DNA of 64,000 nt from Chloranthus sessilifolius (taxonomy: Eukaryota > Streptophyta > Magnoliopsida > Chloranthales > Chloranthaceae): positions 105,383,416-105,447,415 of the forward strand of contig CM037596.1 in assembly GCA_021018995.1 (NCBI GenBank), written 5' to 3'. Both the position numbers and the translations under genes were made by a program. A model generated the notes under the pieces. That model was given only the letters and a program-made list of their open reading frames with translations. It was not told where the DNA came from and did not search any database. How positions within the stretch are numbered: the first letter of the stretch is position 1; each line of letters opens with the position of its first letter. Positions 5,517-52,395 of this stretch are shown one piece after another.

Positions 5517-5869
5517 ACGGACGTCCGTGATTTCTACACGGACGTCCGTATTTACAACCCCTAACTAACAATTTTCTTTCGGCCGTCCGTGAATCACTAC
5601 GGACGTCCGGATTTCTATAGGTTTTCTGACACTTTACCACGGACGTCCGTGAATCACTTCGGACGTCCGGAATATAAACAGTTTCCAATGTTCGAACGGT
5701 CTTTTTGCAGTTATTGCACCTGACAACTGTCATTCATTCACGGACGTCCGTGCATGTCTCTACGGACGTCCGTCGGTTCAATTTCCAAAGTCTTCCTAAA
5801 GCGATTAAATTTTGTTTCCACGGATCTCAAGGTATTACGGACGTCCGTGATCTTCTTACGGACGTCCGT
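5517..5869 (+). repeat. Five phased pairs of a 12-bp palindrome (ACGGACGTCCGT)
   Basis: Pairs start at 5517/5538, 5579/5599, 5639/5659, 5740/5762 and 5837/5858. The start-to-start spacing is 21, 20, 20, 22 and 21 bp, about two helical turns. Most copies match ACGGACGTCCGT exactly or with one or two changes. The centre GACGTC resembles a plant bZIP (C-box/CRE-like) site; binding is inference. The array sits just 5' of the third ORF and the same motif recurs in the 3' LTR. Confidence 0.9.
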
Positions 5870-5967
5870 TCAAAATTTTTTCTAAACTGGCTTTTTGAAC
5901 CGTCTTCTTCATTTTTCACTCAAAATTTTTTCCACTCTGTGCTTCCCATTTCAACGAAAGATAAAGA

Positions 5968-7152
5968 ATGTCTCTAAATAGGAAAAACTCTAAGAAATCT
6001 AAAGGTTCTTCCTCTTCTTCATCGCATGAACTTTAACGTTTTCCTTCTAAAAGCCATGAAGAACGCTTTCAACGTTTATTTCTTACTCGAAATCTCATAG
6101 TCGAACGGGTTGTTCTTGACAAATTTCTCAGAGATCATGATATGTATGAGATGTTTGCTTCTCGGGATTGACTTTCACTTCTTTCTCTAACGGGCTCCGC
6201 TTACACCGATGTGGTTCGGTGTTTTTATGCTAATCTCCTCAATGCCAAGATAGTAGAGAGTAGGATGGAGTGTTATGCAGTGACTTACGTTTTTGGTAAG
6301 CAAATCACTTTTTCTCCTTTACTTATCTCTGAAATCTTAGGCATTCCTTTAAATGAAAATGGGTATAGTTATCCTGTAGATGAAAGTCAAATTCAATCAC
6401 TGTTTAGTCCTTCCACCGTCTATGACTATGTGTGCAATGTACCGTCTCAACTCACTGGAATTGCATTGCACTATTCTTCCTTGAAAATGAAATTTCAATG
6501 GCTTCGCCACGTTCTTTTTGCCACTCTTACACCACGAGCGGGAAATAAAGATCAAGTGCGTTGGGACATTATTTATCTAATGTTCCTGTTAGACAAAAAT
6601 CGTCCTTTGTGTGTATCTTCAATTATTTTTGAATTAATCGTTCGACGCATGAGGGATGATACCTCTAAAATGTCTCTTCCTTTTCCTATAATCATTAACA
6701 AGATTGTTGAGTCTCAAATGACTCTTCCTCCTTTTCTGGCTACTTTTAGAGCCATGGCACCATTAGGTAAGTTAAAAAAAATTGGGAAAAGGGTTAGACT
6801 AGATTTGGACGATGTTGAATTATTAGATGAAACGTCTGATGAGGATGAGGCAGAAGATTTTTCTGCTCAAGAAGATCTTCGTCAAGCTGCTGCTGCTCCT
6901 CCACCAGTTCCTCCGTATCAGGGTCAAGAGGGTCATTATTATGACCAACATTTTGATAGGATGCATACTGAGATGCAACATATGCATTCTGAAATTCATA
7001 ACTTATTTAATCGGATTGAAACTGGTTTCAATATCTATGGGGAGCAAATTTCTTCGCTACAAATGACAATGATTGACGATTTTGAAGCGATGATGAATCG
7101 TTTTAACATTGTCTTCCCGCCTCCAGGAGCACACTTTCCGCCTCTTGAATGA
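5968..7152 (+). pseudogene. SIRE env-like third ORF, two internal stops
   Basis: From ATG 5968 the frame reads MSLNRKNSKKSKGSSSSSS and is the same frame as the open part at 6211-7152, interrupted by TAA (6034-6036) and TGA (6169-6171). The stops could be CAA-to-TAA and TGG-to-TGA transitions. The position and content match the 'envelope-like'/'plant transposon protein' ORF of SIRE elements, of unproven function. After the folded N-terminal part come an acidic stretch (about 6820-6870), a Pro run (6895-6920) and a His/Met-rich heptad-like tail that could form a coiled coil. I see no clear transmembrane segment or signal peptide, so an envelope role is not supported by this copy. Confidence 0.75.
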
Positions 7153-7646
7153 TGTTTATTTTGTTATAATGCTGTAATTCTGATAATATTATTTTGGTTT
7201 AAGGATACATTATGTTTTAGTAATTCTGAAGAACTTTGGTAAATTTTTTTCTTTTCATGTCTTAATCTTTTCAATTTTAATATGATGTGAAAAGTTTTCT
7301 TCATTTGTGCTTAACTTCAGAATTTATATTTGAATGTAGTTTTACTGGTTAAATGTACCCTTTGTCACATTATAAAAAAAAGGGGGAGATACTCTTTATA
7401 TTTCACTTATGCTATTAATGTGTTCTATGGTTATTTCAACAGGTGAAGAGCTACAACTCAAAGATCAATTTCTAATATAGTGTTAAGGTTACACTTTTAC
7501 TTGGCAAATAGTTAGGGGGAGCAAATAGAGTTGTAATTTCAGCATTTGCATTCTAGATTGATGTATAGGACTTACAAGAGAAATGAATGTATTGTATTTT
7601 TTATTTTTTCAATTTTTGTAAACTATTTTTTTGTCATGATTGTGAC
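7153..7646 (+). other. SIRE 3' untranslated spacer with repeated purine tracts
   Basis: No coding potential. GGGGGAG-type purine runs occur near 7381, 7512 and 7650; such repeated polypurine motifs before the 3' LTR are common in SIRE elements. Confidence 0.55.
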
Positions 7647-7657
7647 AAAGGGGGAGA
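7647..7657 (+). promoter_or_regulatory. Polypurine tract of the SIRE element
   Basis: AAAGGGGGAGA directly precedes the TG that opens the 3' LTR. It would prime plus-strand DNA synthesis. Confidence 0.75.
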
Positions 7658-7658
7658 T

Positions 7659-8340
7659 TGTAAGACTTTTTGTCACCATCATGACCCAAAAAATAGTATT
7701 GCTCCTTTAGGAAATAGTTTTGCCAAGTAATTAAGTATGACAAATTGGTTTGTCATTATTGGATCCACGGTCGTCCGTAGTACACTCACGGACGTCCGTG
7801 GTCACGAACGACCGTGAGTGATTTACGGACGCCCGTGACCCTAAAACATATAAATTTTAGGTAGTTCGGGCAGTTTGGTAACTGATCCGAAAATCTTCAT
7901 TCTAAAAATTTTTTTAGTCCAAAATTTTGTCATTGAGATTACTTACCATCTTTTGATTTCATTCTTTAATCTCTTTGATGTTTATGGGTCTTTACGATTT
8001 CATGTTTGAGAGTGTAAGACTTGTGTGAGACAAGTGAACCTTCGCAAGAAACGTAGGTTGATGGAAATGTTCACTTGGATAGTATGATGGAGAAAGGCTG
8101 TCATGTTTGGTGATTGGAGTGCTAGGGCATATCATTCCAAAGAAGCACTGTAAAGTTTTTTTTTGTTCATAGTGAATTTCCTTTTGGATCTGAGATAGAT
8201 CTCGTGGTTTTTGCCTGTGATGGGTTTTTCACGTTAAAAATGTCTTACGTACTTATTTTGATTGTGTGATGATTATGAGTAGATTTTAATTGATAAATTT
8301 AATAGATTATATTAAAAATCCTAAATATCCCAAATTTTCA
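7659..8340 (+). repeat. 3' LTR of the SIRE element (right edge approximate)
   Basis: The repeat begins TGTAAGAC right after the polypurine tract. Two phased palindrome pairs (7767/7788 and 7804/7825, both 21 bp apart) lie just upstream of a TATA-like box at 7849-7855. A U5-like stretch with GGGTTTTTCACGTTAAAAA follows near 8222. The right end is put at CA 8339-8340 because the next bases align to the following element's LTR. The 5' LTR is not in the window, so the end could not be confirmed by comparison. Confidence 0.6.
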
Positions 8341-8932
8341 GAACCTACGTCCACGATCAAGTCTCGTTATTGACTGGAGACGTCTTCCTTCTTATTATCT
8401 TCTTCACTAATACAAAGAGTATTTTGTTTTTCACACTCTACACACCCTAAGGTTCCATCATTAAATAGGCGTACAAGAGGAGCAATCTTGGATTGCCTAC
8501 CAAATTTGGTTGGAGTGATACTCTTTTCATCTCTATTTGATTTTGATTGGTACTTGCCATCTTTGTCTTCATTTGATTAATTTTTTCCACCTATGTTGTT
8601 GCCATCTTTATGTTTATTTGATTGATCTTTGCCATCTGTGTGATTTCTGCCATGTGCAAAATCTGTGATCTTTGCCACTTATGCTCTTGCCATCTTTATG
8701 TTTATTTGATTGATCTTTGTCATATGTACAAAATCTGTAATCTTTGTCACCTATGCTCTTGCCATCTTCATGTTTATTTGATTGATCTTTGTCATCCGTG
8801 TGATATTTGCCACTTGTGATATTGCCATCTTTATGTGTACTTGAAAGATCTTTGCCACCAGTGTGATTTCTACCACATGTACTAAATATCTCGTCAATAT
8901 TTTTGGTGCAATTTGTATGAGTACCATTAACA
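8341..8932 (-). repeat. 3' LTR, missing its terminal ~96 bp
   Basis: Homologous to 15769-16465 and ending at the same ACCATTAACA. The left ~96 bp expected from the other LTR (15673-15768) are absent, so it was cut at the junction with the SIRE LTR. It also carries about 36 extra bp near 8365-8400 relative to the other copy. Its centre is a minisatellite of GATCTTTGCCAYCT-type units. Confidence 0.82.
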
Positions 8933-8942
8933 CCTCCCCTTC
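8933..8942 (-). promoter_or_regulatory. Polypurine tract
   Basis: On the minus strand GAAGGGGAGG directly precedes the TGTTAATGG start of the 3' LTR. Confidence 0.75.
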
Positions 8943-9009
8943 AAGCTGCAGGGTGAGCCGAAGTGAACACCTAGCTTGGACCGCAAGTCTGTAAAGGAAC
9001 TGCATGGAA

Positions 9010-9749
9010 GAGACTTGGTAAAAATGTCAGCGAGTTGATTACTTGAAGGAACAAAGCGAGTGACTAAAGTCCGAAGGGTAACTTTTTCTCTAACGAAATG
9101 GCAATCAACTTTTATCGCAAAAGAGTTCAGGCGCTCGATGAAAAAAAACTCCTAGATCGCGTAGAAGGGAAGCGATCCATGTAATGCCAGCAGCAGTGGA
9201 GAACATAGACCAATATTCAGCTTTGACGCTAGAACGAGCTACAGAGGGCTGTTTCTTTGCACACCAGGAAATTAAATTGGCACCAAGGAAAACGCAGAAG
9301 CCTGTAGTAGAATGTCGAGTGTCGGGGCAGCCAGCCCAGTCAGCATCAGAGAATCCACATAAGCGTGTAGGGCCGTGGGAGGTAAATTGAAGACAATGGT
9401 GTAATGTTCCTTTAACGTATCACAGTATACGTTTCACACATTGCCAATGAAGATCTGTTGGAGCATGCAGGAATTGGCAAACCAAGTTAACAGAATACGC
9501 GAGACCTGGCCGAGTTAAGGTAAGATATTGAAGAGCACCAACAATGCTTCTATAAATATGTGGATCTGCCAATTTTGGAGAGGATTGTTGAAGGTGATGT
9601 TTTTGAGCCAATGGAGTGGAGATGGCTTTACAATCAAGCATTTTGGCGTGCTTGAGAAGAGTAGATGCATATGTAGCTTGACTAAGTATATATGACACCG
9701 CCAGGGATCTTTGTAACCTCAATGGCGAGGAAATAGTGGAGATCGCCAA
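9010..9749 (-). pseudogene. pol: Copia RT C-terminus and RNase H
   Basis: At 9420-9749 the minus strand encodes the end of the RT connection region: LDCKAISTPL, then DPHIYRSIVGALQYLTLTRP and HWQCVKRIL. Below that RNase H continues in other frames: GFSDADWAGCPDTRHSTTG, LISWCAKKQPSVARSS and AEYWSM (about 9180-9380). The family's last motif, with HFVREKV and NQLADIFTKSL, is at about 9000-9110. Several frameshifts and stops separate the pieces. The plus-strand open frame at 9184-9390 is only the antisense of RNase H. Confidence 0.87.
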
Positions 9750-9818
9750 GGTCTTTCATAGAAAATTCATATCCAAGGTTTTGGTTTAGGTTTTGCACAA
9801 GGAATCCATTCTTACTAG

Positions 9819-10748
9819 TTAAGATAATATCGTCCACATATAAAAGTAAAATAGAAAACCCGAGGATGAGTGAAGGATGAATAGGGAAGGGTCAGCATCA
9901 CTACAATAGAACCCAAGATGGATGAGATAGGTGCTAAAACGATCAAACCAAGCCCTGAGAGCTAGTTTAAGTCCATAATGAGCCTTGTGCAAAAGGCAAA
10001 CATGATTAGGATATAGTCCATCAATAAAGCCCAGAGGTTGTTCCAAAAAAACTTGTTCTTTTAAATTACCGTGAAGAAAAGCAATTCGAACATCAAGTTG
10101 TTTTATGTGACACTTATTAATAGTAGCCAAAGTGATCACAAGATGAATAGTTACAGGCTTAACAACTGGGCTAATGGTTTCTTCGAAATCAAGGTTCGCA
10201 ACAAGACGAGCTGTAAGATGCTCATTAGTGCCGTCGGCATGCCTTTTAACTTTGAACACCCATTTGGACCCAACAACATTCATTGATAAGTGGCATGGAA
10301 CCAAAACCCAAGTCTGATTATGTTGCAAGGCAGCAAGCTCTTCTTCCATGGCTGCATACCATTGTGGATTATGAAGAGCAGATCGAATGGTATGAGATTC
10401 CACAGAGTCAGATCTAGTATTGTGGACTAAGCCAAAATGAAGAGAACGATAATTAATGGAAGATGAGGTTCCATCTCGAAGGCGAGTAGTCATCGGGTGG
10501 GCCATAGGGCTATCGCTATGAAGTATGGGCTCAGGTGACAAAGTTGGTGAAGAGTCACTAATATGAATAGGTAGGGGTGAAGCTAGTGCAATGGTTGGAG
10601 CATGACTAGTTGGAGAAGAATTAATTTCGCTAGGTTTTGGATTGTGGAGTAGAGTAATAGGACTAGGTTGTTCAATCAAGGGGGTAGGATTAGGAATGTG
10701 GAGAGTAGTAGTGGACTCAAATGTTAGTTGACAATCCAATTCGGTCAA
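9819..10748 (-). pseudogene. pol: Copia reverse transcriptase
   Basis: A Ser/Pro/Thr-rich linker comes first, then the RT domain: NPQWYAAMEEELAALQHNQT, VGSKWVFKVKRHADG, the first catalytic Asp in KQLDVRIAFLHG, and LLHKAHYGLKLALRAWFD. The usual Lys-Gln-Ala-Pro-Arg segment ([10 protein letters not shown]) reads AHYGLKLALR, so at least two conserved residues have changed. The frame shifts just before the catalytic box; LLYVDDIIL is present in the next frame near 9825-9850. Enzymatically dead as it stands. Confidence 0.9.
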
Positions 10749-10808
10749 ATCAAAGGTGGGTACAGAATGAGCAGGGATGATGGGTGTATGGCCTATTTGC
10801 TCGTCTTG

Positions 10809-11539
10809 CTACACGGAGTTGGGTTTGGTCCATTCAGTAACATTTGTGAAGGAAGTAATCTCCCCTTCAATAGTTTCAAAGGTGCCATCTTTTGATGTGG
10901 TAACATAAGGTAAATATTGTTCCTCAAAAGCTACATGTCGAGAAACGTAGACACGCCCAGTTGGAGGGTATAAACACCAGAATCCTTTATGATTCGAACC
11001 ATATCCAATTAATACACAGGGATAAGATTTTGGCGTAAAATTATCTTTTGCATAATTTCGCAAATAAGGATAACAACGACATCCGAAAAATTTAGAATTG
11101 TATAATCCGATTTTTCAAGATAAAGCAAAGAATATGGTGATTGCAGTTGCAGCTTTTATGAGGGTAACCTCTTTATAATATAAGAAACATGATTGCATTT
11201 GCAGCTTTTATGAGGGTAACCTCTTTATAAGAAACACAGCTGTTGAAAAAGAATCAACCCAATATTTGTGAGGCATATGCCTATTAAAGAGCAATGTCAT
11301 GCCAATCTAAACAATATGATGATGCTTTCTTTTAGCAATCCCATTTTGTTCAGATGTTCCTGAGCAGGACATTAGATGGTGTATACTAGATGTGCGCAAA
11401 AAATTAACAAAGGCTTGAGATGTAAACTCTCCTCCACCATCACTATGAAAATTTTTAATTTTCTTCTCAAAACGATTTTCAACAAGCTATTTAAAACTTT
11501 GAAAATTACTTAGAAACTCGGATTTTAGTCTCATAGGAA
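10809..11539 (-). pseudogene. pol: Copia integrase, core and C-terminal part
   Basis: The open part (10809-11063) is the post-core domain: SYPCVLIGYGSNHKGFWCL and TGRVYVSRHVAFEE. Upstream in the gene (11300-11535) other frames hold the core: IKNFHSDGGGEFTSQAF with its catalytic Asp, and SGTSEQNGIAKRKH. The last catalytic Glu of the DDE triad is replaced by Lys (codon AAA at 11331-11333). A tandem duplication of about 50 bp (GCAGCTTTTATGAGGG twice, 11140-11230) disrupts the part between. The integrase is cut at 11540 by an insertion. Confidence 0.85.
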
Positions 11540-12016
11540 AAAATCAGGTAAAACGTGTGTAGTCTGATGGAATCTAAATGGATCTGACGATCCGACCATC
11601 CAAATTTAGCCTAAAGATTTAGGCGCACGATCAATCAAAAACCAATAAATATATAAACTATAAATATGCGCACCTTGAGCGTTAGTCATTGATGGTTGCC
11701 GATCTTTAACGATGTTCTCGCGTTCAATGTCTCCTAGCATAATGGGGATGCTCTAGCCAATAGGGAAGATTGAATTATGTCGAGCTATCGTTGGGACCAA
11801 GCACCCCTTATATTTATAGCCAAAGAGTCCTATCCCATTAAGGACTGAAATTGTTAATTGTAGTGTGATTAGAAATTACAATCATACCTTAACTGAAAGA
11901 CTCAACAATCAGTTGCCTATTCTCTTCAAACTCACCAGAATAACAATTGTACATCTTAAGGTTGATCTTATACCATTCATCGGTCAACGGGTTTGAACAT
12001 AGTGCTGGCCACCAAA
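11540..12016. mobile_element. 477-bp insertion in integrase, family not recognised
   Basis: The integrase protein is interrupted between DDYVRRSY and MRLKSEF. The flanks carry the 7-bp repeat ATAGGAA (11533-11539 and 12017-12023). I see no terminal inverted repeats and no TG..CA ends. It contains TATA-like stretches at about 11650-11665 and 11808-11815. It could be a small non-autonomous element or part of a solo LTR. Confidence 0.5.
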
Positions 12017-12023
12017 ATAGGAA

Positions 12024-12300
12024 CGTCTAACATAGTCATCCACAAGAATAGCATAATACCGAAACTTTTGACATGATGTAATAGGTGTTGGTCCCCAGAT
12101 ATCATAGTGAATTTTAAATAAAGGAGTGGTAGATCCCTTATAATTTTCCGTGAAAGGTAGACGACATCTTCGTCCTAATTGACAACCATAGCAAGCTGAA
12201 GAGTTTTAATTCCAACTAGCAATATGTATTAAGTTTTTCGAATTTAATTGAGGATGACCTAACCGGTGATGCCCTGTCTCTTCTGATGCCTTTAACTAAG
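12024..12300 (-). pseudogene. pol: Copia integrase N-terminal part (zinc domain)
   Basis: The minus strand encodes HHRLGHPQLNSKNLIHIAS and SACYGCQLGRRCRLPF, the HHCC zinc domain, followed by HYDIWGPTPITSCQKFRYY and ILVDDYVRRSY, the start of the catalytic core. Stops interrupt it. It joins across the 477-bp insertion to the core at 11539. Confidence 0.82.
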
Positions 12301-12430
12301 GATGACCTAACCGGTGATGTCTTTAACTGAGGATGGCCTAACCTGTGATATCTTGAACTGAGGATGGCCTAACCTGTGATGCCATGTAATGTCTTGAACT
12401 GAGGATGGCCTAACCTGTCTCTTCTAATGC
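12240..12430 (-). repeat. Tandem amplification of the integrase LGHPQ-coding stretch
   Basis: About five copies of a roughly 30-40 bp unit (GAGGATGRCCTAACCKGTGA) run head to tail. The unit is the antisense of the TGHHRLGHPQL codons, so a piece of the zinc domain has been multiplied. Confidence 0.75.
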
Positions 12431-12474
12431 CTTAGTGATCTTTCTTCCTTCGATAGTAATATATGCTTGCTTTC

Positions 12475-14256
12475 TTATGTGTCCTAAAATTTGTACTCGC
12501 AAGTGCACGAAATATGATGTAGTCAATGGGTGCAAAGTACGAGATCGTTCCCACGAGGATTGGTTAGAAAATATAAAAACAGAAATATCAATTAACTAAA
12601 AAAAATTTCACACATCTTAAACAGTAACTAACAACCTAGAATTCTGGAAACTTTTCTTCCCATGGTAGGTTTATTATTTACAAAATATTAATCTGTGGAT
12701 TGAGATGTGAGATCTTTAACAGATATCTCAAAAGAAAAACTGCCCTATACACACGTGAGTTCTAAAATATAGATTTGAGATCACGGAGATGCATGATTAA
12801 CATCCCATGAGTGTATGATTAACACTCACACCTCGGACAATATTTGGAACCCAATCTTTAGTGTAATTTCCAAAGTACGATCTAAGATCAAGGAGATGTA
12901 TGATTAACACCCCATGGGTGTATGATTAACACCCACACCTCAGATCATGATTGGCACTCACCACTGGGATAAAGTCATACCATCAATCCGAGATCAAGGA
13001 GATGTATGATTAACACCCCATGAGTGTATAATTAACACTCACACCTCAGATGATGGTAAAACTTCACCCCGAGATGGGTGATAATTAAGATAAAATCATT
13101 ATTGCAGATCTGAAATCATAGGGCATGATTAGCTCCTAGATCTCGGACTGAAATGATGATTTCATCATTTTCAATGAATATTAGGGTCTTTAACAGCATC
13201 TGACATCTCAATCACAGATTTATATTAATATAAATGTATACCTCGGATGGGGTTCATTACATCCCCATCCTTAATGAAACTAGCCACACATAGTAAAAAT
13301 AAATAACATGGTTAAAATGTAAATAAACATTAACATCAATATTTAAAATACCGTAAAGAGCTTTATTATTATCCACAAAAAGCTTTAATCCAAGTCCGTA
13401 CACCTCCTTCTTGAAAGTGGATCCAAATCAGAAAATTAAGACTTATCTTCTTCTCAAAATGAATATTAAAAAGGTAGTTCAAGAAAATGGGACTCAATGC
13501 CCTTACACTTTGAAACGCAGAAAACTAAAAATAAAAGAATGCAGAAAAATGAAAACTCTCTAAAAAACAGAACTCTCTCCAAAGAAGAATGCAGAAAAAA
13601 ATAAGAATAAATCTCCGAAGGACTCTCCGAATGAATATATCTCCAAGAATATCTTTTTCCTTAATTGCCAAAACAGAAGCCGCTTTTTCCTCCAAGATTT
13701 TATTCCGTGAAAAGAGTACCGAGATTCTCGCGGCTAAACAAAATTCCGAACTCAAATTCAAATTTGGTCGATCGATCGACTAAAGAGGGTCGATCAGATT
13801 CTGTTTTGAAATTTCAAATCTTTCGGATTAAGTTGATCGATCGACCAAAAAGGGTCGATCAATCGACCTCCCAGATTTTCGTGAACTCCCGCTACACTTT
13901 GCATTCAGACACTGCCTCGGTATTGCGGCCATAGCTTTCTATCCCGAAGTCAGATTGAGGCGATTCTTACGGCGTTGGAAAGCTGACGACGAGTTCTCCA
14001 ACTTTTATGTTTTGAAAATTTTCTGAATCTAACGTCTTAAAGGTTCAAATTGAGCTCCAAGTCGAGATAAGTTCCGAATGATCCAAGGTAGCACGAATTT
14101 GACGTTATATTCTGAACTTTTTGGGTTATTTCATGCTCAACACATCTCCAGGCCTGTAAATCACTAAAAATATATAAAACATGTTAAATGACTTTCATCG
14201 GATAACTAAATGTAGGTCTTTAGGGGTGAAATATCATCATATTTCACTGCACATCA
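12475..14256 (-). repeat. 1,782-bp solo LTR inserted in the copia element (copy A)
   Basis: Flanked by the 5-bp TSD CTTTC (12470-12474 and 14257-14261). Read on the minus strand it starts TGATGTGCAGTG and ends ACACATAA, a decayed CA end. It is homologous end to end with the solo LTR at 39715-41566 in opposite orientation. It carries a tandem array of ~80-bp units with TGTATGATTAACACYC (12780-13060) and phased palindromes (13767-13867). The terminal module GCAAGTGCACG plus GATCGTTCCCACGAGG lies at 12498-12560. A hairpin with 9-bp arms (GTGAAATAT) lies at 14226-14247. I recall similar LTRs in Tat/Athila-type gypsy elements, but the lineage is not proven here. Confidence 0.82.
13767..13867. repeat. 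Phased palindromes in solo LTR A (GTCGATCGATCGAC type)
   Basis: Pairs at 13767/13789 and 13832/13854, each 22 bp apart. Three of the four are clean palindromes of the form GTCGATNNATCGAC or one base off; the second is degenerate. Confidence 0.8.
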
Positions 14257-15008
14257 CTTTCCATGATATAAGGCAAAAAGTCCTCCCTCTTATGTCCCGT
14301 TGCTAGGATCTTTCTTGTCTTTCGATCCCTGACACAAGACGAGTCTGATGAGAATTCAAAGATACACGAGTTATCTTTAGCAAATTGACTGACTGATATG
14401 AAAATTTTCTTAATATTTGGAACAAGAAGAACATTGTGAAGATCAAGATTCCCAAAGGGGGTATGTAAAGGAGCATGACCGATATGAGAGATGTCTAAAC
14501 TATTTTCATCCCCAATACAAACTTTATCAGTGCCAAAATATGAAGATAAATTTTTAAAATTACCTGAATTGTTAGTCATATGAGACGTAGCACCTGTGTC
14601 AGCATACCAGTTTGGATCTTGAGTTTCAGAAATACTCATGGCGGTGAGGGCTTGTGGAACCTCTTCGCTTTGATATGAGTGATCAAATCGATGCCAACAC
14701 CCAGTCGAAGTAGGGCCAAACTTACCACAGGTCTGACATTTTATATTTGCAAACTTGTTCCGATTGTTATTGAAGGAGTGTTGAAGAGACATGTGACCAA
14801 CAGGTCCACGTGATTGTGGAGACTGATTTTGGATCCGTGTGGAATGAGAATCTTCACCTTCCAAGTTTTGTTGATTTGGATTGGAGGACGACCCATTCTG
14901 TCCGATCGGAGCAAACCCACGTCCTTGAGAAATAAACTGTCGTGATGAATCCTGTCTAAAAAATTTGCAATTGTTTTTATAGTTACTCCCTTTTCCAATG
15001 AAGGCCAC
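14257..15008 (-). pseudogene. gag-pol: Copia gag C-terminus and protease
   Basis: The open frame runs from 15008 down to 14244, but its last codons and stop lie inside the solo LTR, so the gene part ends at 14257. A Gln/Ser/Asn-rich linker is followed by a zinc knuckle CQTCGKFGPTSTGC in which the His of the CCHC motif is Pro (codon CCT, probably from CAT). The protease follows with WYADTGATSHMTNN (active Asp in DTG), VCIGDENSLDISHIG and LHNVLLVPNIKK. The knuckle change should abolish zinc binding at that site. Confidence 0.88.
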
Positions 15009-15571
15009 ATTTTGATCAATATTATGATGTTCTAATTAGTTATTTGATTCTTTTCTCAATTTATATGTAAGGCTTGAACAAATTCGGTGTAAGATGGTAA
15101 AGGAGGTTTAGAAATCATAAAGGTGACGAAGGCATCATCATAGTTGGGACCCTCAAAGCACCGAGTGAAAATCGCAACAGAATCATTTCCCTTTCGGCAA
15201 GTATACAACATTTGCATCAGGTGGAGTTCTCGATCCTTTCAGATTCGCACATAATTTTCTTCTAAGCAGGTCCATATTTCATGAGCAGTTTTAACCCAAT
15301 AACAAGGATAAGGGCTTCTTCAGTCATGGTAGTTGTTAACCGAGCTTCGACTATACAGTCATTTTTTTTTTGTTGGGTAGATCAGCTTGAGCTTGTAGGG
15401 TTGATCTGGCCTGTAGAGATCTCTTGCTTTGGTTTGCTGATGGAACCAACGAGGTATCTGTGCAGTTCTGCTCCATCTACCAGAGACTCAAATTGCATCT
15501 TCCATAGCGTATGATTTTCCAAGTGTCACGCAACTCGTAAAGGTAGAGGTAGATGATGATGGAGACGCCAT
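15009..15571 (-). pseudogene. gag: Copia gag N-terminal part
   Basis: An ATG at 15571 opens MASPSSSTSTFTSC on the minus strand. Downstream in shifted frames come WKMQFESLVDGAELHRYL, VGSINKP, KTAHEIWTCLEE and NYDDAFVTFMISKPPLPSY, all typical of copia gag (UBN2-type). Several frameshifts and stops are present. Plus- and minus-strand open frames at 15281-15514 and 15477-15743 are shadows or LTR read-through. Confidence 0.75.
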
Positions 15572-15660
15572 AGCAAATAGAGGGTGTGTAGTGATCTGTA
15601 GCACAAAGGAGGTTTTGTTTATCACAGATAGAGAAACAGATTAGAATCCCAGAGTCTAGT

Positions 15661-15672
15661 GCTTTAAGACCA
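15661..15672 (-). promoter_or_regulatory. Degenerate primer-binding site
   Basis: On the minus strand TGGTCTTAAAGC matches 9 of 12 bases of the tRNA-Met site TGGTATCAGAGC and abuts the LTR end. Confidence 0.6.
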
Positions 15673-16465
15673 TGAGAAAATAGTAATAAAATAATAATAA
15701 GCAAATAGAAGAAGTGCAAGGAGCAAGTAATGTCACAACACACAATTTTAACGTGGTTCAGTGTTTCAACTTACGTCCACGATCAAGTCTTCACTAATAC
15801 AAAGCTTATTTTATTTTTCACACTCTACACACCCTAAGGTTCCATAATTAAATAGGTCTACAAGAGGAGCAATCTTGGATTGCCTACCAGATTTGGTTGG
15901 AGTGATACTCTTGCCTTCTTTATTTGATTTTGATTGTTACTTGCCATTTTTGTTTACTCTACCATCTACCTCAACTTTGAGGTTTCTGATAGTAGCTTGG
16001 TATAGTTGGGTCTTGTCAACTTTGTCTTCATTTGAGTGATTTTTGCCACCTATGTTCTTGCCATCTTTATATTTATTTGATTGATCTTTGCCATCTGTGT
16101 GATTTCTACCATATGCGTAAAATCTGTGATCTTTGCCACCTATGCTCTTGCCATCTTTATGTCTATTTGATTGATCTTTGCCATATGTGCAAAATCTATG
16201 ATCTTTGCCACCTATGCTCTTGCCATCTTTATATTTATTTGATTGATCTTTGTCATCTGTTTGATTTCTGCCATATGTGCAAAATCTGTGATCTTTGCCA
16301 CTTGTGATATTGCCATCTTTATGTGTACTTGATAGATCTTTTCCACCTATGATTTTGCCATCTTTATGTGTACTTGATAGATCTTTTCCCCCAGTGTGAT
16401 TTCTGCCACAAGTACTAAATCTCTTGTCAATATTTTTGGTGTCATTTGTATGAGTACCATTAACA
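15673..16465 (-). repeat. 5' LTR (793 bp) of the copia element
   Basis: On the minus strand it starts TGTTAATGG at 16465 and ends TTTTCTCA at 15673 next to the primer site. A minisatellite (about 16027-16400) of 70-100 bp units with GATCTTTGCCACCTATGCTC gives a repeating Leu-Cys-His reading that mimics a gene. The five bases to the right (TTATA) may be the target duplication, but the other side is lost. Confidence 0.82.
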
Positions 16466-16475
16466 TTATAAAAAA

Positions 16476-17420: not shown

Positions 17421-17430
17421 ATTTTTCAAG

Positions 17431-17816: not shown

Positions 17817-17845
17817 ATGAGACTTCAAACCCCCTTACCATAGAT

Positions 17846-39714: not shown

Positions 39715-41566
39715 TGATGAGTACTGAAAAATGATGATAGTTCACCCCTAAATACCTATATTTAGCTGTCCGATGAAGGCTATCTGATGAGAATGATTAG
39801 ATTTGAAGTGTTTCAGGTAAATACAAGCCAAGTATAGAAAACAGCCCAAGAATTCTGAATATAATGTCAAAACACTGCAACTTTGGGTAATCAAGAACTT
39901 GGTGCGACTTGCGGATAATTTTTGACCTTCAAGACGGCCGAATTAGGACATTGTCAAAACATGAAAGTTGTAGATATTTTTGTCATCTTTCCAACGGCGT
40001 ACGAATTCCCTCAATCCGAGTTCGGGCCAGGAAGTTATGGCCGAAATACCGAAGCCGTGTCTGATACAAAGAAAGTGCTGAATTTCACGGATTTCTGGGG
40101 TCGATGCATCGACCCTGTAGGTCGATTAATCGAGGATAAGTCAGAGTCTGACACGAAACTGACACTGTAAAGCTAATTTTTGGGACTTTTTTGCGGCTCG
40201 ATGCATCGACCCTCCCTGGTCGATTAATCGACCCTAAAATTACGGCTTGGGAAACTTCTGCGACGAGGGGTCTATTTAAAATGACTCAAACACTTCGGAA
40301 AAAGGGAATTAGATAGAGAGATTTTTTTTAGAGATTTAAGTAGAGAATTAGATAGAATTAATTTTAGGAAAGAGTTAGTTTTAGAGTTTTTAGTTTTTAG
40401 CTATTATTTTTCATAGTTAGACATAGAAATAGGGAAGTTTTATTATTCCTTTTCGAGAGCTTTGTTCCCTTAATTTTTCAGTATTCATTCCTTCAGTTTA
40501 TAAATTTTGTTCAAAGTTTATTCATGCATTAATTTCGTTTCTGAAGATCATCGTACTTTTGGATCAAAGTAAGTTCTTTTGAAGTTTGAGGTAATTTTAA
40601 TTTCTTAAATTAATGTTATTTTCCCGTCTTTATTTATTTATGTGATTTAATTACAATATGTGTGGCTAAATTTATAGGGATGGGGATCTAATGATTCACA
40701 TCCGAGGGATGTACTTTTAATAATATAAATTAAGGATTAAAATATGAGATTTTATTTTATGATTGTTGTGCTATCATGAACGGATGAAATCCCCGCCACT
40801 AATCGGGATCGCGTGTGCCTAGCCATGCCCGGGATCTCAAATCTGTGACGGTAATTTTACCCAATCATTGTTATGGTCTTTTTGCTTTCATCGTGTGGAT
40901 CTAATTACGATTATGTTCCGGGATCGAGTGTGCCTAGCCATGCCCTGGATCTTGGATCTGTAATGGTAATTTTATCTTAAATACTCCCTAATCTGAATAA
41001 AGTGTGCCTAGCCATGCCCTTGATTTCAGATTTATAAGTGGTATTCTTATTGAAATTTTCACCCACTTTGGGAATGATTTTTATTTGAACCTGAGATCAT
41101 GTGTGCCTAGCCATGCCCTTGATCCCAGATCTATATATGAAAATCATCTAAGTCCTGATTGCAGGGATGCAACGTGGAACCTATTAGGGTGTTGACCATT
41201 GATCTTCCATAAAAGATGTTTGTTACCAATGAAATATCTCATAATTTAATCCTTAGATTTATATTATGGGAAGAACGGACCAAAGATGGGAGGATTTAGT
41301 ATCTTCATCTTTATCATCATCTTTACCTTTCCTTTTGAATGATCAATTGAATTTTATTTTTGTAGTCATTAATTACCATCTCATCAACCGCTTAAATCAT
41401 AAAACTGGTAGAATACTGTTAGATCGTCATAGATTTCTAGAATTGCTTGTCTCTTTTAGATCTTTCAAAATTAGTCCTCGTGGGAACGATCTCGTACTCC
41501 GCACCCACTATATACAAACCGATTCGTGCACTTGCGAGTAAAACATTACAATTAAAAATCACATCA
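39715..41566 (+). repeat. 1,852-bp solo LTR (copy B), nested in the previous one
   Basis: TSD TTTTC (39710-39714 and 41567-41571), ends TGATGAGTACTG and AATCACATCA. Homologous to copy A (12475-14256, opposite orientation) along its length. A TATA-like TATTTAAA lies at 40273, downstream of phased palindromes. About four tandem units with GTGTGCCTAGCCATGCCC span 40800-41130. The conserved 3' module CTCGTGGGAACGATCTCG and CGTGCACTTGCGAGTA is at 41478-41540. Confidence 0.88.
40100..40232 (+). repeat. Phased palindrome pairs in solo LTR B
   Basis: GTCGATGCATCGAC at 40100 with GTCGATTAATCGAG at 40121 (21 bp apart), and CTCGATGCATCGAC at 40197 with GTCGATTAATCGAC at 40219 (22 bp apart). The last site ends about 40 bp before the TATA-like box at 40273. 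Confidence 0.88.
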
Positions 41567-44494: not shown

Positions 44495-44499
44495 TTAAC

Positions 44500-46901
44500 T
44501 ATAATAGCCCGAAAAATCACGCTAAACTATGACCTCGGGATCCGTGCCCGATCGGTCATAGGTTTGACCAAATGGAAGTCCAATAGTTAGCATGAGGTGT
44601 GATGAATGGATGAGATGTGATAAATTGAATGTCTATGTGGTGTGTGTTGTAAATGTGAAGTCGCATACACCTATAGCGGTGTATGTGCTCAACACACACG
44701 TGAGGAAAGGGATAAAAGGGTTTAATAACCCTAAATGTGTGTTTTTGGTGGTTGAGAGAGAAGTAAAGAAGAGAGAGAGAGGAAGTAAAGAGAGGAGTTA
44801 TTGCAACTGATTGGAGGGGGGATTCAAGCGATAAAAGCCGGATTCAACACAGTTTGGATCTGTTAGAGCCAAAGCTGGAAACCCTAGCCTTCCAACCACT
44901 GGATTGAAATCAACTTACATTGATTCAAGGTAAATTTTATGAATAAAATGCATAGATCGAGAGTCTAAATTGTAGTTGAAAATGGTTTAAATCATAGAAT
45001 AATGGTTTAGAAAAATAGAGGAAAAGTGTGGAAAAGATGGGAAGAACAAAATGAAGGGTTGACCGACAATTTCGATTAATCAAATTGGGTTTCATTAATC
45101 GAAATTGGGAAGTTGAAAAGTCGAGATTCGATTTCGATTAATCGAATTGGAATTCATTAATCGATTTTGATTTCGATTAATCGATTTGGGTATCGACAAT
45201 CGATCGGGAACTCTCCAAAGGACCTCTGTGGGTTGAGTGAAATGGCCGACTAATCGAAATGGGATTTCAATTAATCGATTTCAGTTTTCGATTAATCGAT
45301 TTGGGATCGATTAATCGATTTTAGGAACTCGACTACTCGAATTGAAAATCGACTTTGCGAAACAGAGAATTTCGATTAATCGAATTAGGATTCGATTAAT
45401 CGAATGAAAATCTCGATTAATCGATTTGAGAATCGATTAATCGATATTGACTTTCGATTAATCGATTTTGGAATTTGATTAATCGACTGAGATAAATTAT
45501 GTTGACTTTTGGGTTTGACTTTAAGATTCTTGGAGAGTCTTGGACCTTCTTTATTGCATCCTTAGTGATGTGTTTCACCTGTTATGTGGTACCATAGGTG
45601 GTACGTGTGAACTAATGCACAAGGAGCCACGTGGGACCTTGATGCGTTGAGCAAACAAAGACTTGAGGTAGGGAACACCTTGAACATGTACCTTATTTTA
45701 CAAGAGCATGTATGTAGTGATATAGATTTCAATTCAGTTGTTTAATTGCTTAAGAATTGTGAAAAGTGTGTGTGCGTGTGACATCCATAAGAGTAATACT
45801 AATAAGCCATCCCCAGGGGGTGAAGAAGTAAAGAGATCAGAACATCAGATGTGATGCAAGTGAATGGATACATCCTAGGGATGTATCCAAGATTGAATCA
45901 TGTTTGATAGGGCCTAACTGATATAAGATAGCACACTTACACGGTGAATAACTATATGTAAGGCACCGATATTTTTATTATTTGAGGTTTGATAGGTTAC
46001 CCCACCGACGTGGCGGGATATCCACGACTGACACGGCAGGATATCCGAGTACCGAACTGTGACCGTGAGGCTGAGACAAGTGAAACCCGCCACCAATCCC
46101 CAAGGAAAGGGCTTGGTACTATATTTGTATTCCTGTGAATACGTTAAAACTGTCTATATAGATGACGATGAAGGGTATCTCATCAGGGCTCGATGCTATA
46201 TTGCTCGGGGATTACTTAAGTTGAAAGTTTAAGTTTTGCTTTAGGCCTTTTCAGCATCATTCATGACTAAATGAAAACATAAGTAATGAACAGTAAAATG
46301 AAATGCTTTTAACTGTTTTCATCAATAACTGCATAGACACATCATGCATGGCATATCATGGAATATATGTGAGTTATAATTTATATGTTCAACCGTATTT
46401 GTTCCCTATTGAGCTAGGATGTAGCTCACCCTATAGACTATACGTCGCAGGTCCACTACTAGCAATGCAGGCTTGAGAGGCCGATCCCGTGAGTCGGACC
46501 TTGCGGCCGGCGAAGAATTGGAGCCACCTCCTGAGGACTTTTTCTAGAGGACTCCGTTGTGCCGCTTTGAGGGCTTTTAGAGAGATTTTGTACGACTTGG
46601 TATGTCAAGCCTTGATTTTGTTTAAAACCATGTATCTAAGGAGTTGGGATTATTCTTTTGGGACGAACCATCCGTGATGATTTCTATCATCGATGGTTCA
46701 GATCGGTTCTCCATTCATGCAGAGGCATGAGGGTAGAACTGTCTTTTGGGGAGTTAATTAATATAGATTTAAATTCCGCAATTTCGTTTATTATACTTTT
46801 GATGCTTGATATACTAGTGTTTCGTGCTTAGCTAAAGGGCACGATCAAGATGATCGTGCTGATGGCACGAGTTTCGGGGTGTCGAAATCCGGGCTGTCAC
46901 A
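44500..46901 (+). repeat. 2,402-bp Tekay-type solo LTR
   Basis: TSD TTAAC (44495-44499 and 46902-46906). Ends TATAATAGCCCG (decayed TG) and CGGGCTGTCACA. The stretch GAGCTAGGATGTAGCTCACC (46412) and the GC-rich GAGTCGGACCTTGCGGCCGG (46492) are of the kind seen in Del/Tekay LTRs. It splits gag between TTELMRV and VKKFEHG. Contains the large phased CGATTAATCG array. Confidence 0.87.
45071..45490 (+). repeat. Phased CGATTAATCG palindrome array, about 17 sites
   Basis: ATTAATCG cores start at 45075, 45094, 45137, 45156, 45176, 45196, 45249, 45270, 45291, 45310, 45332, 45375, 45395, 45416, 45436, 45457 and 45478. Neighbouring intervals are 19-22 bp, with three gaps of 43, 53 and 43 bp that fit two or nearly three steps. 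A few sites are degenerate. Confidence 0.88.
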
Positions 46902-46906
46902 TTAAC

Positions 46907-47857: not shown

Positions 47858-48146
47858 GAGCCGGTTAGGTCCTCCAATGGAGGACGGTGACCGTCCTCCA
47901 AGGTACACATGGAGCTCCACGTGGTAAAGATCAATATTAAAAAAAAAAAAATTTAACCCACAAGTCAAAGTTTGACGGGTTTCATTGGTCCACATTTCAT
48001 GGTTCAAAAAATACACGATGGATATGTTTTCAATATGATGATCTAACCAATGCACCCGAGCTCCACGTGGCATCGAAACAATATTTTGGGTGCCATGTGG
48101 AAGCTTGGAGGACAATGACCGTCCTCCCATGGAGGACGAACACCTT
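47858..48146. mobile_element. Foldback MITE, family G
   Basis: Begins GGTCCTCCAATGGAGGACGG and ends with the inverted GGACAATGACCGTCCTCC. It shares GAGCTCCACGTGG and CCCACAAGTCAAAGTT with the copies at 53950-55260 and 60715-60840. Confidence 0.65.
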
Positions 48147-48159
48147 TTTCATATATCTA

Positions 48160-48689
48160 TCTCCACCCACTGAATCGAGTTCACCCATACATTGATTGCA
48201 TTCAATCGGATGATGGAGAGTGTTTATTGTCCCAATCTTTCACCCGATGAATCTTAAGATCATGGGTGTACCATCGTACAGTCGATTTTTTATTTCATAT
48301 GGTACACACCCAAATAAATTACCTTAAAATCAATTTTGCGTGTGCACGTGATGTTAAGGTCACTTTTCTAAGATGTGTACCACGTGAAATAAAATACTGA
48401 CAGTCTGATGGTACGCCCATGATCTCAATATCCATCATGTGAAATATTGACACTACAAAAAATAAGACTATTAGCGGTAGCCAAAAACTACCGCTAATAT
48501 CCTTGCCGCTAACAGTCTTAATAACCTTTAATAGTTTTTTTAATAATAGTGGCAGTTTTTTGCTGTAAAAAACTGCCGCTAATAGTCTTACTTTTTGTAG
48601 TGTGAGAGGATAAACAATTTCCATCGTCTGATTCAACGGAGTCAATGCATTTCAACATGGGTGAACTCAAAAATTCAGTGGGTGGATTT

Positions 48690-48695
<6 letters not shown>
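48160..48695. mobile_element. Foldback MITE, family F, split by a CACTA MITE
   Basis: Inverted arms CTCCACCCACTGAATC and GATTCAGTGGGTGG-like; interior CATCTTGAGATCAT-like motifs. Interrupted at 48451-48602. Confidence 0.65.
48451..48602. mobile_element. CACTA-type MITE, 152 bp
   Basis: Ends CACTACAAAAAATAAGAC and its inverse, 3-bp TSD TGA on both sides (48448-48450 and 48603-48605). Same length as the copy at 37263-37414. Confidence 0.85.
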
Positions 48696-48735
<40 letters not shown>

Positions 48736-48937
48736 GTACCTCTAAACGTGCCTATATCCCAGACCCCTTGAAATCCATTGAATCCTTGGAATCACCTATC
48801 AAAGAGTCGGTTTGTGATTCCATGTGTCATAGATCCCAAAAAAATGGCCATAAAGTCACATTTGAGCGTGATTTGTGCTATATGATTCAATGACATTTTT
48901 TCAGGGGGATTTGTGAGACATGGAATAAAAAATTGGG

Positions 48938-49485
48938 CGTCTGATAGGTGGGCCATGATCTGAAGATCTATTTTGTAAAAGATAGGTATGAAAATTAATC
49001 TCCATCATCTCATTCGAAGGAATCAATGGTTTTCAAGGGGTCGAGGACGTGGGCGCATCCGAAGAACCTGTGAGCACATTTAGAGGTACCATATATATAA
49101 AGAATTTGGTCAAACAAATATGGTCCGGTCAAAATTGGGCCATAGAATCTACTGGGTCAATACATATGATTGACTTGGCCCAATGACCCGACCAATGATC
49201 TGCTCTGTCCAATGATAGGTGGGCCATGATCTGAAGATCTATATTGTAAAAGATAGGTATGAAAATTAATCTTCATCATCTCATTGTAAAGAATCAATGA
49301 TTTTCAAGGGGTTGGGGACGTGGGCGCATCAGGAGAACGCGTGAGCGCGTTTAGAGGTACCCTATAGATAAAGAATTTGGTCAAACAATTATGATCCGAT
49401 CAAAATTGGGCCATAGAATCTATTAGGTCAATACCTATGACTGGCTTGGCCCAGTGACCCGCCCAATGATCTGCACCGACCCGGC
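48938..49485. repeat. Tandem duplication, ~273-bp units
   Basis: GATAGGTGGGCCATGATCTG opens two units (48938 and about 49213) that run through GAGGTACC and GGCCCAATGACCCG with scattered substitutions. Confidence 0.8.
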
Positions 49486-49748
49486 CGAGACCCCATCTAT
49501 GACCCATTAAAAAAAAATGCAAATATGATATTGGGAAGAATCGAACCGACAACCTATTGAGTAAAAAGTAAAGTAACACTAGTCACTTAACAAACTAAAC
49601 AATTAGAGCGATTCAAATTTTTTGTACATCAAAAATTATATCAAGCAACTACATGATAAATTCTTTCAAAATATGAGGCCCCCAAAAATTTAGGGGCTCA
49701 AGGAACCCAGCTCTTGGGCCTTGGCCCAGGGCCGACCCTGTGTGTTGA

Positions 49749-49956
49749 CCATAGTCTCCAACAACTGCCCATGTAATCCTTCATTACCTCTACCAACTAG
49801 AATGGTGTTAGGACTCTCATCATTACTCCCTTCCCCCAATGGGATGGTATTAGGACTCCTAGGGATTTCGACACCACTTGGTATGTCCTCGTACTCCGGA
49901 ACGTCACTCATAAGGACCGTCTTCGGCCTGCCTCTACCTCTTACCCGTGGAGCCAT
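49749..49956 (-). pseudogene. gag: Gypsy gag N-terminus
   Basis: ATG at 49956 opens MAPRVRGRGRPKTV, a basic start common in Del/Tekay gag, followed by VPEYEDIPSGVEIPRSPN and LLETMVNT. At 49748 it is cut by the hAT-like element and resumes at 47345. The leader between the primer site and ATG is about 120 bp. Confidence 0.82.
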
Positions 49957-50079
49957 ACTGATTTGTCAATGATCGAATAAAATTCGATCAGCACTTGTTA
50001 TGACAAAATTAGGCTCATTATCCTATAAAATCTGAATCTAAAGTTATGGCTCTGAGTCCCCATAAAATCTAAAGTCTAG

Positions 50080-50091
50080 GCTCTGATACCA
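50080..50091 (-). promoter_or_regulatory. Primer-binding site of the gypsy element
   Basis: On the minus strand TGGTATCAGAGC, a perfect match to the 3' end of initiator tRNA-Met, a few bases inside the LTR end. Confidence 0.9.
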
Positions 50092-50095
50092 AATA

Positions 50096-52395
50096 TGGTA
50101 GCCCGACTTTTTTACACTAATTTCTAGAAAAGGTCGGGTCGCCAAATGATTATCCAATTTCCCCTAAGCATGATGATAGGAAAATCAAACCGTCCGATGC
50201 CTTCTAAGGCATGCTCTCTCATACGGAATGCTAAACAAACATCATCTAACACTATTTTGATTCCAATTCTATATATGACATAATCCAAAACTGACAAAAA
50301 TAGCTACCGGTAATGGCCAACCGTCACATAAACAGTGGTTTCAAACTATAAATAGTAATATCACTTTAGTTCAAGTAATTTACTTATAATCAAAATGAAC
50401 TTAACCCAAAATCTATCACCAATAACTACGGGAAGTAATCTTCAGGCAAAAACTCCTCTGCTTCTAACACATAATCAAGGTCTTTTAATTCAGGATCCTG
50501 ATTCACATCTACACCTATGACATAAATGTCGGGATGATCTAACAGTCTTAGCTTAGTAGGAAAATATCAATATTAACTCATATTTCATAAATTTGAAACA
50601 CGGGTTCAATGATATAATCAACAACATTTATCACATTAAAATTGAATCAAACGATGATCTTTCAAATATAACTTCATGTTCAAATAGAATTTAAAAGCAT
50701 TGATATTCAACATAGTATTCAAACGAAATTCGAAAATTCATGTGACTTAAATTTCTATTATTTCGTACTTCTTACATGCTATGCTTTGTTCATTAAATGA
50801 CTTAAATTGTAACTTAAGTAACTCCAACGCGATAATAGCATTGAGCCTTATAGATGGAAAGTCTTCTAACCATCATCTTTAAATAAACACTTACAGAGTG
50901 TACGGTATAAACCGCCGTATCGGTCCATGGTGGATGGTACAAACCGCCATATCGGTCCTTATGAGGTTTTGTTCACATAACCTTAAATCAATATACACAA
51001 CTAATATTCAATACTTAAATCAATATTTTAATACATAACAAATGTCGGAATTTAAAGACTTTGTATTCATTGAGTCGGTAATTCAGAATCGATGTTCGAT
51101 TTCAATAGTTCACATTCATAGTTTGACTATTTGATGAAACACACAATTACTATGATTATTTCACAATCATATTCATGTTAATCGTATCACGTATCTATGT
51201 ATCAAAAAATCAAAATGGGAATTAAGTATTGAATTTTCTCTATCTTAAGTTTAGTGCCTTTCAAAGCGATCCAAAGGTTTTTTTCTACCTCTTCCATTCT
51301 TAACCAAAATTACATTAATATCATACTACGTGTCAATGACGGAAAAATCATACGGTTCGAAGTTTCTCCAAGTTTTTCCAAAGAAAATCGAAGCAGCCAG
51401 AAATAAGGGAAATCGATCGATCGATTTCCTTCAGAAAACTGACACCTTAATTCTGTCAAACTCGATCGATCGATTTCAAAATCGAGTATTTGATTTCAAA
51501 CTCGATCGTTCAATTCCTTCCAAAATTCTGCACTTTTCAATCCTGTTAAAATCGATCGATCGATTTCCAAATACATCATTCGATTTTGACAGATTCTGTA
51601 GCCCTTCGGGCTTCATCTTCTTTGGTTCATTTTTCTCCCAATTTCCAAAAATACTCAATCACACACCATACATTTATCAATCTAAGATTAGAAAACTAAT
51701 TCTCATACCGTAAGGTTACGATGCTCACCTTTTTGAGGTTGTTCATGCAGCTTTCGATGATTTCCTTTAAAAAGGGGTTTCGGTGTCGAATGGCGGATTC
51801 TCACAACCATTGACTCGAAATGAAGCCCAATACTAAGTTCCTCACACCAATAAGTATTGATTCTAACCTTCATAATCGCGTACAACACTTTCACAACGAT
51901 CGGTTCATCCTCAATATAACTCACACTCTTTGAAACTCTTAGATCTAAGAAATGTCGGAGTTCAAAGCTTCTCCGCGATTGAAATTTACGAAAGACGGAG
52001 CTCGTGCGATGTTGGTGTCAAATGTTTCATGAAGGATGCAGAGAGATCTCGCAATGGAATCTCACGAGAGGGTTTGAAAGAGAAGAAGAAAGCTCTCTCT
52101 CTCTCTCTCTCACTACACTTCTTTTACAAACAAAACCCAAATGAAATATCTTAGATATTTCATTTCACTTGACTTTATCCTTTAGCTTTTGTGGGGTTAT
52201 TGGAAGTTGAGAAAGCACACTGCAAGTCGGTGCACGGTTCCTCATCTAAGGCCACAAATGATTTTCAACTTCACTTTTGACACACATCACACATTGATTA
52301 AATATTTATTCTAAAATTTCAAGGCGGTATCGATCGCCATACTGAACACGCACACGAGGTCGGTTGCATTCAGGTTCGAATTTTCTCAAAATGTT

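Follow-up and report, generated by a model that had tools for sequence, protein, structure and literature searches.

Palindrome doublets about two helical turns apart in LTR retrotransposons of Chloranthus sessilifolius: candidate paired sites for dimeric proteins near promoters

Palindrome doublets in the window and across the genome

A stretch of 64,000 nucleotides from Chloranthus sessilifolius (GCA_021018995.1, CM037596.1:105,383,416-105,447,415, forward strand), hereafter the window, carries several retrotransposons in which short palindromes recur as doublets, with centres about two helical turns (19–22 bp) apart. The palindromes lie in the long terminal repeats (LTRs) and, in a SIRE element, also upstream of an env-like gene. 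The doublet rule holds genome-wide, for most lineages with different palindromes in this plant. We give a probability of roughly 0.68 to the reading that the palindromes are promoter-proximal sites at which dimeric DNA-binding proteins would dock two by two; host transcription factors would most likely be the binders. A first-pass annotation of the window had claimed phased palindrome arrays in five elements, and the lineage names Tekay and gypsy used here are its labels. The genome searched comprises 2.17 Gb in 32 contigs, and all counts come from this one plant genome; L numbers denote genomic stretches.

Perfect palindromes of at least 12 bp with at least two G/C were counted in the window, with 100 dinucleotide shuffles as control. 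The window held 56, as compared with a shuffle mean of 18.5 (maximum 28). Seventeen pairs had centres 8–60 bp apart, as compared with a mean of 0.3 (maximum 2) in the shuffles; 10 of these pairs lay at 19–22 bp and five at 38–41 bp. The arrays of the window are confirmed by this comparison. One hundred stretches of 10 kb were placed at random in the first 90 Mb of C1–C14, and 20 of them served as an independent sample. They contained 130 palindromes as compared with 54 in shuffles, and 48 pairs 6–100 bp apart as compared with 1.5, 12 of them at 19–22 bp and eight at 40–42 bp. Other palindromes also came up in this sample, TCAATCGATTGA and CTCGCTCGAGCGAG among them. A search of the window and the sample for TCGATNNATCGA, with at most two mismatches, gave 159 nearest-neighbour distances of no more than 120 bp, 84 of them at 19–22 bp; three shuffles of the same DNA gave a mean of 8.3 pairs, none at 19–22 bp.

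Genome-wide counts were compared with those of the reversed word. There were 335,892 TCGATNNATCGA sites, as against 967 for the control, and 29,216 sites for GTCGATNNATCGAC, as against 37; the reversed control turns CG into GC, and the contrast in counts is partly not about palindromes. The contrast in spacing is independent of this swap. TCGATNNATCGA formed 168,435 pairs 12–42 bp apart, as compared with three in the control, and 142,475 of them were at 19–22 bp, i.e. 85% in four of the 31 allowed distances. Over the same range CAATCGATTG gave 24,571 pairs against none. For CGGACGTCCG the figures were 2,643 and none, the pairs listed being mostly 20–23 and 40 bp apart.

Arrays of the window elements

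The SIRE element of the window has its RVT_2 (pol) match at 2861–4450 (E 6.1e-72). Its main array, at 5515–5869 on the plus strand, consists of 10 members of ACGGACGTCCGT (up to two mismatches) in five doublets, 21, 20, 20, 22 and 21 bp apart. It is internal and not part of an LTR, lying between pol and the env-like open reading frame (ORF). A second array, absent from the first-pass list, is found at 7767–7836 (plus strand), with two doublets at 21 and 21 bp; it sits in the 3′ LTR, the start of which, at about 7659 after the polypurine tract, was read from the sequence. With up to three mismatches allowed, the element has 10 internal and four LTR members.

LTR A (array at 13767–13867, minus strand) has GTCGATNNATCGAC-type sites with one doublet at 22 bp; its second site has a degenerate partner with more than two mismatches. 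LTR A is apparently nested inside a minus-strand copia element at 8401–16465, in which RVT_2 (9822–10808), Pol_BBD (14247–15035) and similar repeats at 8401–8932 and 15788–16465 were observed. Solo LTR B occupies 39715–41566 on the plus strand (1852 bp, TG...CA, target duplication TTTTC). Its ends are one of ten combinations of TG, CA and duplication, selected because homology to LTR A and to L061 stops there. Of the other matches listed (40 of 7,242 candidates were scored), 31 of 40 span exactly 1–1852, and all are 92–95% identical, one 70-base piece excepted. The LTR B array, at 40098–40233 on the plus strand, has doublets GTCGATGCATCGAC / GTCGATTAATCGAC at 21 and 22 bp. The two LTRs are homologous, on opposite strands (72% over 422 bp).

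The Tekay-like LTR array, at 45069–45486 on the minus strand, has 16 members of TCGATTAATCGA (up to three mismatches), and 12 of its 15 neighbour distances are 19–22 bp; a homologous stretch is present in L047. The gypsy LTR starts near 51206, and many matches listed begin at query base 6–9. Its array, at 51408–51588 on the plus strand, has TCGATCGATCGA sites (up to three mismatches) spaced 49, 40 and 50 bp apart in the window copy; other genomic copies often have 20-bp neighbours. The claim of arrays with two-turn spacing in five elements is therefore borne out for SIRE, LTR B, the Tekay-like LTR and the one doublet of LTR A, but not for the gypsy copy. The further claim that each family has its own palindrome applies to SIRE, where ACGGACGTCCGT differs from the TCGATNNATCGA core; the palindromes of LTR A, LTR B and the Tekay-like and gypsy LTRs all fit TCGATNNATCGA. 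A skeleton, nCGnnCGnnCGn, is common to the palindromes of SIRE, gypsy and L049 (ACGGACGTCCGT, TCGATCGATCGA and TCGCTCGAGCGA).

The doublet distance is kept while spacers vary

Plain tandem duplication could give regular spacing if one 20–22 bp unit per LTR were amplified by slippage, with palindromes carried along, and would then leave similar spacers. In the first 100 TCGATNNATCGA pairs listed, all on contig C1, 85 were at 19–22 bp and 50 at exactly 21 bp. Among the 40 that were not of Tekay type, 37 were at 19–22 bp, and the 38 listed non-Tekay pairs of up to 22 bp had 35 distinct spacers. Identity among 24 distinct non-Tekay 9-bp spacers was 0.365, as compared with 0.337 when shuffled, a value reached by three of 500 shuffles. 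For 18 Tekay-type 9-bp spacers it was 0.59 as compared with 0.40, reached by none of 500, and Tandem Repeats Finder (TRF) reported the Tekay array as units of 19–21 and 39–41 bp. CAATCGATTG pairs, as listed, were exactly 22 bp apart in 37 of 50 cases, with 30 distinct spacers. Doublets also recur with free gaps between them, as in L070 (22-104-22-83-22-103-22).

The TRF rows of the same DNA bear on both sides. Non-palindromic tandem repeats often share the period of 19–22 bp (35 of 196 rows), as duplication would predict; units with significant inverted symmetry are concentrated at periods 19–22 (16 of 46) as compared with other periods from 14 to 39 (four of 78), a count made on overlapping rows with a rough symmetry score of our own. 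Several different palindromes share the distance. The Tekay-like array thus retains a signal of duplication, and elsewhere the doublet distance is kept while the spacer varies. Units homologous over their full length, as in minisatellites, were not found outside Tekay-like arrays and were found in part within them; the free spacers and the variable gaps between doublets ruled out the notion that all doublets are simple minisatellites. Duplication of one ancestral unit, named at the outset as the finding that would undo the case for spacing, therefore contributes in the Tekay-like LTR but is insufficient where the distance is kept with distinct spacers, and as a general explanation we regard it as improbable.

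In some families, arrays stand at a typical distance from a TATA-like box

Each distance given here runs from the centre of the last palindrome to the first base of the TATA-like box. In the window SIRE, TATAAAT at 7849 lies 18 bp past the last centre of the LTR array. On the ORF side, CTAAAC (5882–5887, plus strand) stands where other SIRE copies carry TATAAA, 18 bp past the last centre, the box pattern having been loosened for this copy after looking. Other SIRE arrays on the ORF side gave 17 (L108), 16 (L110), 15 (L114) and 16 bp (L115), and L109 gave 15 bp with the looser variant TTTAAA. The B type has a longer distance, again similar at both places: 46 bp in the window, where the TATA-like CTATTTAAA occupies 40272–40280 on the plus strand, 44 (L086) and 43 (L079) in LTRs, and 45 (L117) and 46 (L086) on the ORF side. 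Values for CAATCGATTG-type arrays were 37 (L060), 35 (L071) and 35 bp (L072), with L050 at 37 bp; the ORF-side array of L049 gave 14 bp.

With a single pattern applied to 165 array flanks, a box was found within 76 bp of the last centre in 25, as compared with 8.5 expected from shuffled flanks. The excess was seen at 15–19 bp (eight versus 0.6) and at 35–49 bp (10 versus 2.1). We read this as an activator array that would abut a core promoter, with the same putative geometry at two promoters of one lineage, for SIRE and B only.

Arrays before PF20167 open reading frames

The env-like ORF of the window SIRE matches the PF20167 (Transposase_32) profile over its open part, 6172–7149 on the plus strand; the frame that begins with the ATG at 5968 meets stops before 6172. 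PF20167 ORFs were seen both in this copia element and outside copia, the others lying at 4390–5613 of L049, 247–1041 of L060 and 861–1538 of L086. The matches of L049 (34.7 versus 45 bits) and L060 are below the curated cut-off. A protein search with the PF20167 ORF found no match at E 0.001 or better among 3,483 candidates.

We examined 1.4-kb pieces upstream of 12 PF20167 matches, picked by hand from 150 listed. Together they contained 89 palindromes, as compared with 38 in shuffles. SIRE-type arrays (up to two mismatches) were present in eight of the 12 (L108, L109, L110 and L112–L116), in copies that are related to each other and not independent; the array of L116 has no perfect member. 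L117 carries a GTCGATNNATCGAC array and L118 a CCTCGCGAGG array before PF20167, and no array was found in the upstream pieces of L107 and L111. In L118 the frame after the first ATG opens with a lysine- and arginine-rich segment.

L049, which has RVT_1 and not RVT_2, carries a CGCTCGAGCG array before its PF20167 ORF, with distances of 22, 69, 22, 66, 23 and 22 bp, and a second one further downstream (22, 41, 33, 44, 23, 23 and 22 bp). L086 is the interior of a B element. L117 aligns to it on either side of a segment, about 1.85 kb long, in which the LTR B-type array lies; from these coordinates, a solo LTR B seems to have inserted between array and ORF. No reverse transcriptase was seen in this 5.4-kb interior piece. 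The B family is presumably Athila-like, a label for which we rely on PF20167 and on a primer site that we take to be of tRNA-Asp type.

Conservation, CpG decay and helical phasing

Conservation was assessed in 21 gypsy LTR copies, that of the window and 20 places chosen from 65 listed matches. At non-CpG positions, pairwise identity was 0.886 in palindromes, 0.770 in spacers and 0.806 upstream, and palindromes exceeded spacers in 20 of 20 split samples in which sites had been defined on other copies. The 139 distances in these copies include 20 bp (31 times), 31 bp (19 times), 39–41 bp (10 times) and 50–53 bp (26 times), which is suggestive of two, three, four and five turns, but in copies that share one ancestral layout.

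The in-phase component at 10.5 bp was 0.29 for the window and random sample (jitter p 0.0005), 0.44 for the related gypsy copies (p < 0.0005), 0.20 for CAATCGATTG arrays (p 0.01), 0.39 for six SIRE distances (p 0.05) and −0.17 in L077–L083. With each distinct distance used once, the values were 0.14, 0.04, 0.10, 0.40 and −0.14, and the best-fitting periods were 7.7, 9.9, 11.8, 6.9 and 6.2 bp, respectively, never 10.5. Helical phasing beyond the doublet, across families, is thus not established. The spacing of the doublet itself looks selected, because it is kept with unlike spacers and with several palindromes and because non-CpG positions are better conserved; that much of the earlier proposal of selected phasing can be retained.

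A chromatin feature was also considered, in which the regular CpGs of the skeleton nCGnnCGnnCGn in SIRE, TCGATCGATCGA and TCGCTCGAGCGA would serve methylation, nucleosome placement or silencing. CG is present in 47 of the 51 palindromes paired at 19–22 bp as compared with 123 of 344 others, and among the array members CpG transitions account for 49 of the 87 substitutions, as methylation of the DNA would lead one to expect. Nevertheless, TCGATTAATCGA and CAATCGATTG are without part of the skeleton, CpG positions decay most (identity 0.666 in the gypsy LTR palindromes, versus 0.886), and the characteristic distance to a TATA-like box within a family suggests promoters instead; a chromatin role seems to us quite unlikely. 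That TCAATCGATTGA might derive from TCGATCGATCGA via CpG decay is only an idea.

Neighbouring palindromes are not matched to pair

Were the arrays to act in RNA, neighbouring palindromes would pair in the transcript and work through hairpins or small RNAs. In maize, small RNAs are in excess at Sirevirus palindrome clusters, which are described as lying in the LTR cis region and as small-RNA hotspots (Bousios et al., 2016, as cited in the available text of PMC10760457 and PMC5311732). The account there is of secondary structure and small RNAs in copia families; the evidence here favours DNA sites. Neighbouring TCGATNNATCGA centres were not matched to pair, being complementary in 11 of 40 cases as compared with 9.3 expected. 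Facing flanks across CAATCGATTG doublets were complementary in 16 of 30 as compared with 9.8 expected (p 0.009), a result that can be read either way. The flanks of a single palindrome are mutually complementary as well (23 of 45 versus 13.4), which would fit longer, symmetrically varying palindromes. A hairpin explains no constant-length loop of free sequence, and arrays before TATA-like boxes are therefore partly outside the transcript. The stem arrays once proposed thus find little in these counts, and we hold RNA stems to be very improbable.

Candidate sites for paired dimers

Of the functions proposed in the first-pass annotation, protein binding is the best prediction, because some families place their arrays at a distance from a TATA-like box that is typical of the family. 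One palindrome would bind one dimer. Two dimers bound to a doublet, with centres about two helical turns apart, would share a DNA face and be able to touch, and an array directly before a TATA-like box could drive the LTR promoter. Where the env-like PF20167 gene exists, the array may also drive the presumed internal promoter of that gene. We infer dimer binding, dimer cooperation, transcription activation, the internal promoter and the identity of the protein from sequence. LOB-domain proteins are, we assume, binders of CGGAnnTCCG; a literature search gave no support for this.

Several observations weigh against paired promoter-proximal sites. No TATA-like box was found after the SIRE arrays of L112, L113 and L116, and the patterns used for individual cases were chosen after looking. 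With the single pattern, 140 of the 165 array flanks were without a box within 76 bp, partly since each array has two ends; the initial view that most arrays are followed by a TATA box was thereby abandoned. In L118 the doublet rule is not kept, only one of seven distances being near 21 bp (22; the rest are 32–102), although the TATA position is retained, with TATAAA at 19 bp. CAATCGATTG spacer cores are slightly alike (0.398 as compared with 0.355 shuffled, reached by none of 500 shuffles). Finally, palindromes lose their advantage in conservation over spacers once CpG positions are counted (0.783 versus 0.773), because these positions decay.

The binder could instead be encoded by the element, the PF20167 protein of each lineage recognizing its own palindrome and activating or de-silencing its own element, as VANC does. 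The palindromes that precede the PF20167 ORFs of SIRE, the B type, L049 and L118 differ, and the proteins are very diverged (21% identity over 172 aa between SIRE and the B type of L086). The available text of PMC11728184 reports a predicted nuclear signal for the PF20167 protein of a sunflower Athila element, and in that of PMC5735166 VANC offers a precedent for a transposon-encoded protein that binds arrays of family-specific motifs. Against this, four env-less Sireviruses also carry palindromes (available text of PMC2829016), and the stretches examined, an unsystematic selection, yielded no PF20167 together with Tekay-like arrays. On balance we find an element-encoded binder doubtful. An extension, likewise speculative and rather unlikely, would have plant LTR retrotransposons of both superfamilies run a circuit of two promoters, one in the LTR and one internal to serve PF20167, each composed of lineage-palindrome doublets at two turns and set at a family-typical distance from TATA; the PF20167 product would then be no envelope but a nuclear DNA-binding protein that recognizes the lineage palindrome, thereby activating or de-silencing elements of its own lineage.

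Relation to known systems

That Sireviruses have palindromes before the TATA box and before env is already known. Their RM boxes are palindromic, with a CGG-CCG core, and are found in LTRs near the TATA box and upstream of env (Bousios et al., 2010; PMC2829016). The available text of that paper compares Ty1/copia elements, among which it calls the motif Sirevirus-specific. The SIRE arrays of the window share the CGG-CCG core and agree in other respects, with at least eight palindromic copies with this core in an RVT_2 element, an LTR cluster before TATAAAT and a cluster upstream of the PF20167 ORF. L049 differs in being an RVT_1 element with the palindrome CGCTCGAGCG; its array would function in the manner of an RM array without belonging to that class. 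The B family has the core TCGATNNATCGA, not CGG-CCG. The available text of PMC2829016 contains no spacing rule, whereas here doublets at 19–22 bp were found, with other palindromes and in Ty3/gypsy elements too.

Arrays bound by VANC in VANDAL transposons are likewise family-specific short motifs in non-coding transposon DNA (Hosaka et al., 2017; PMC5735166), a feature that the present arrays share. VANDALs, however, are DNA transposons with a known, element-encoded binder, and palindromes are not mentioned in the text searched of that paper. Sunflower Athila elements have the same PF20167 family, and palindromes go unmentioned in the main text of PMC11728184. The open-access literature searched yielded no account of a doublet rule at 21 bp, nor of arrays of this kind in Ty3/gypsy LTRs. 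As far as that literature shows, the doublet rule, its occurrence in non-copia elements with other palindromes, and the matching geometry of array and TATA at LTR and ORF are new.

If the reading as paired dimer sites is true, a Sirevirus curiosity would become a cis-regulatory grammar that applies more generally among plant LTR retrotransposons, composed of a lineage palindrome, doublets at two turns and a family-typical TATA distance, with one and the same unit in the LTR and before the env-like gene. It would make testable the activator of these very abundant elements and the role of env-like PF20167 proteins, and the arrays, with 335,892 TCGATNNATCGA sites in this genome, could serve host regulators as a sink or as a source of binding sites.

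Other observations

Paired patterns on viral contigs (19 and 22 stretches) were taken for phage DNA from composition alone and set aside; 34 of the 41 stretches have at least 50% G+C, and nearly all have just two to four sites. In L050, dense AAGATAGC...GCTATCTT inverted repeats at 20–21 bp occupy 5190–5370 and 8101–8360; unlike an LTR promoter array, they are possibly subterminal repeats of a transposon. The window has more inverted-repeat units, absent from the first-pass list, at 59395–59695, with periods of 20 and 22 bp (GTATCGGCGATAC... and CGATTGTCTACACAATCG...), in which the centre has a gap or a single base.

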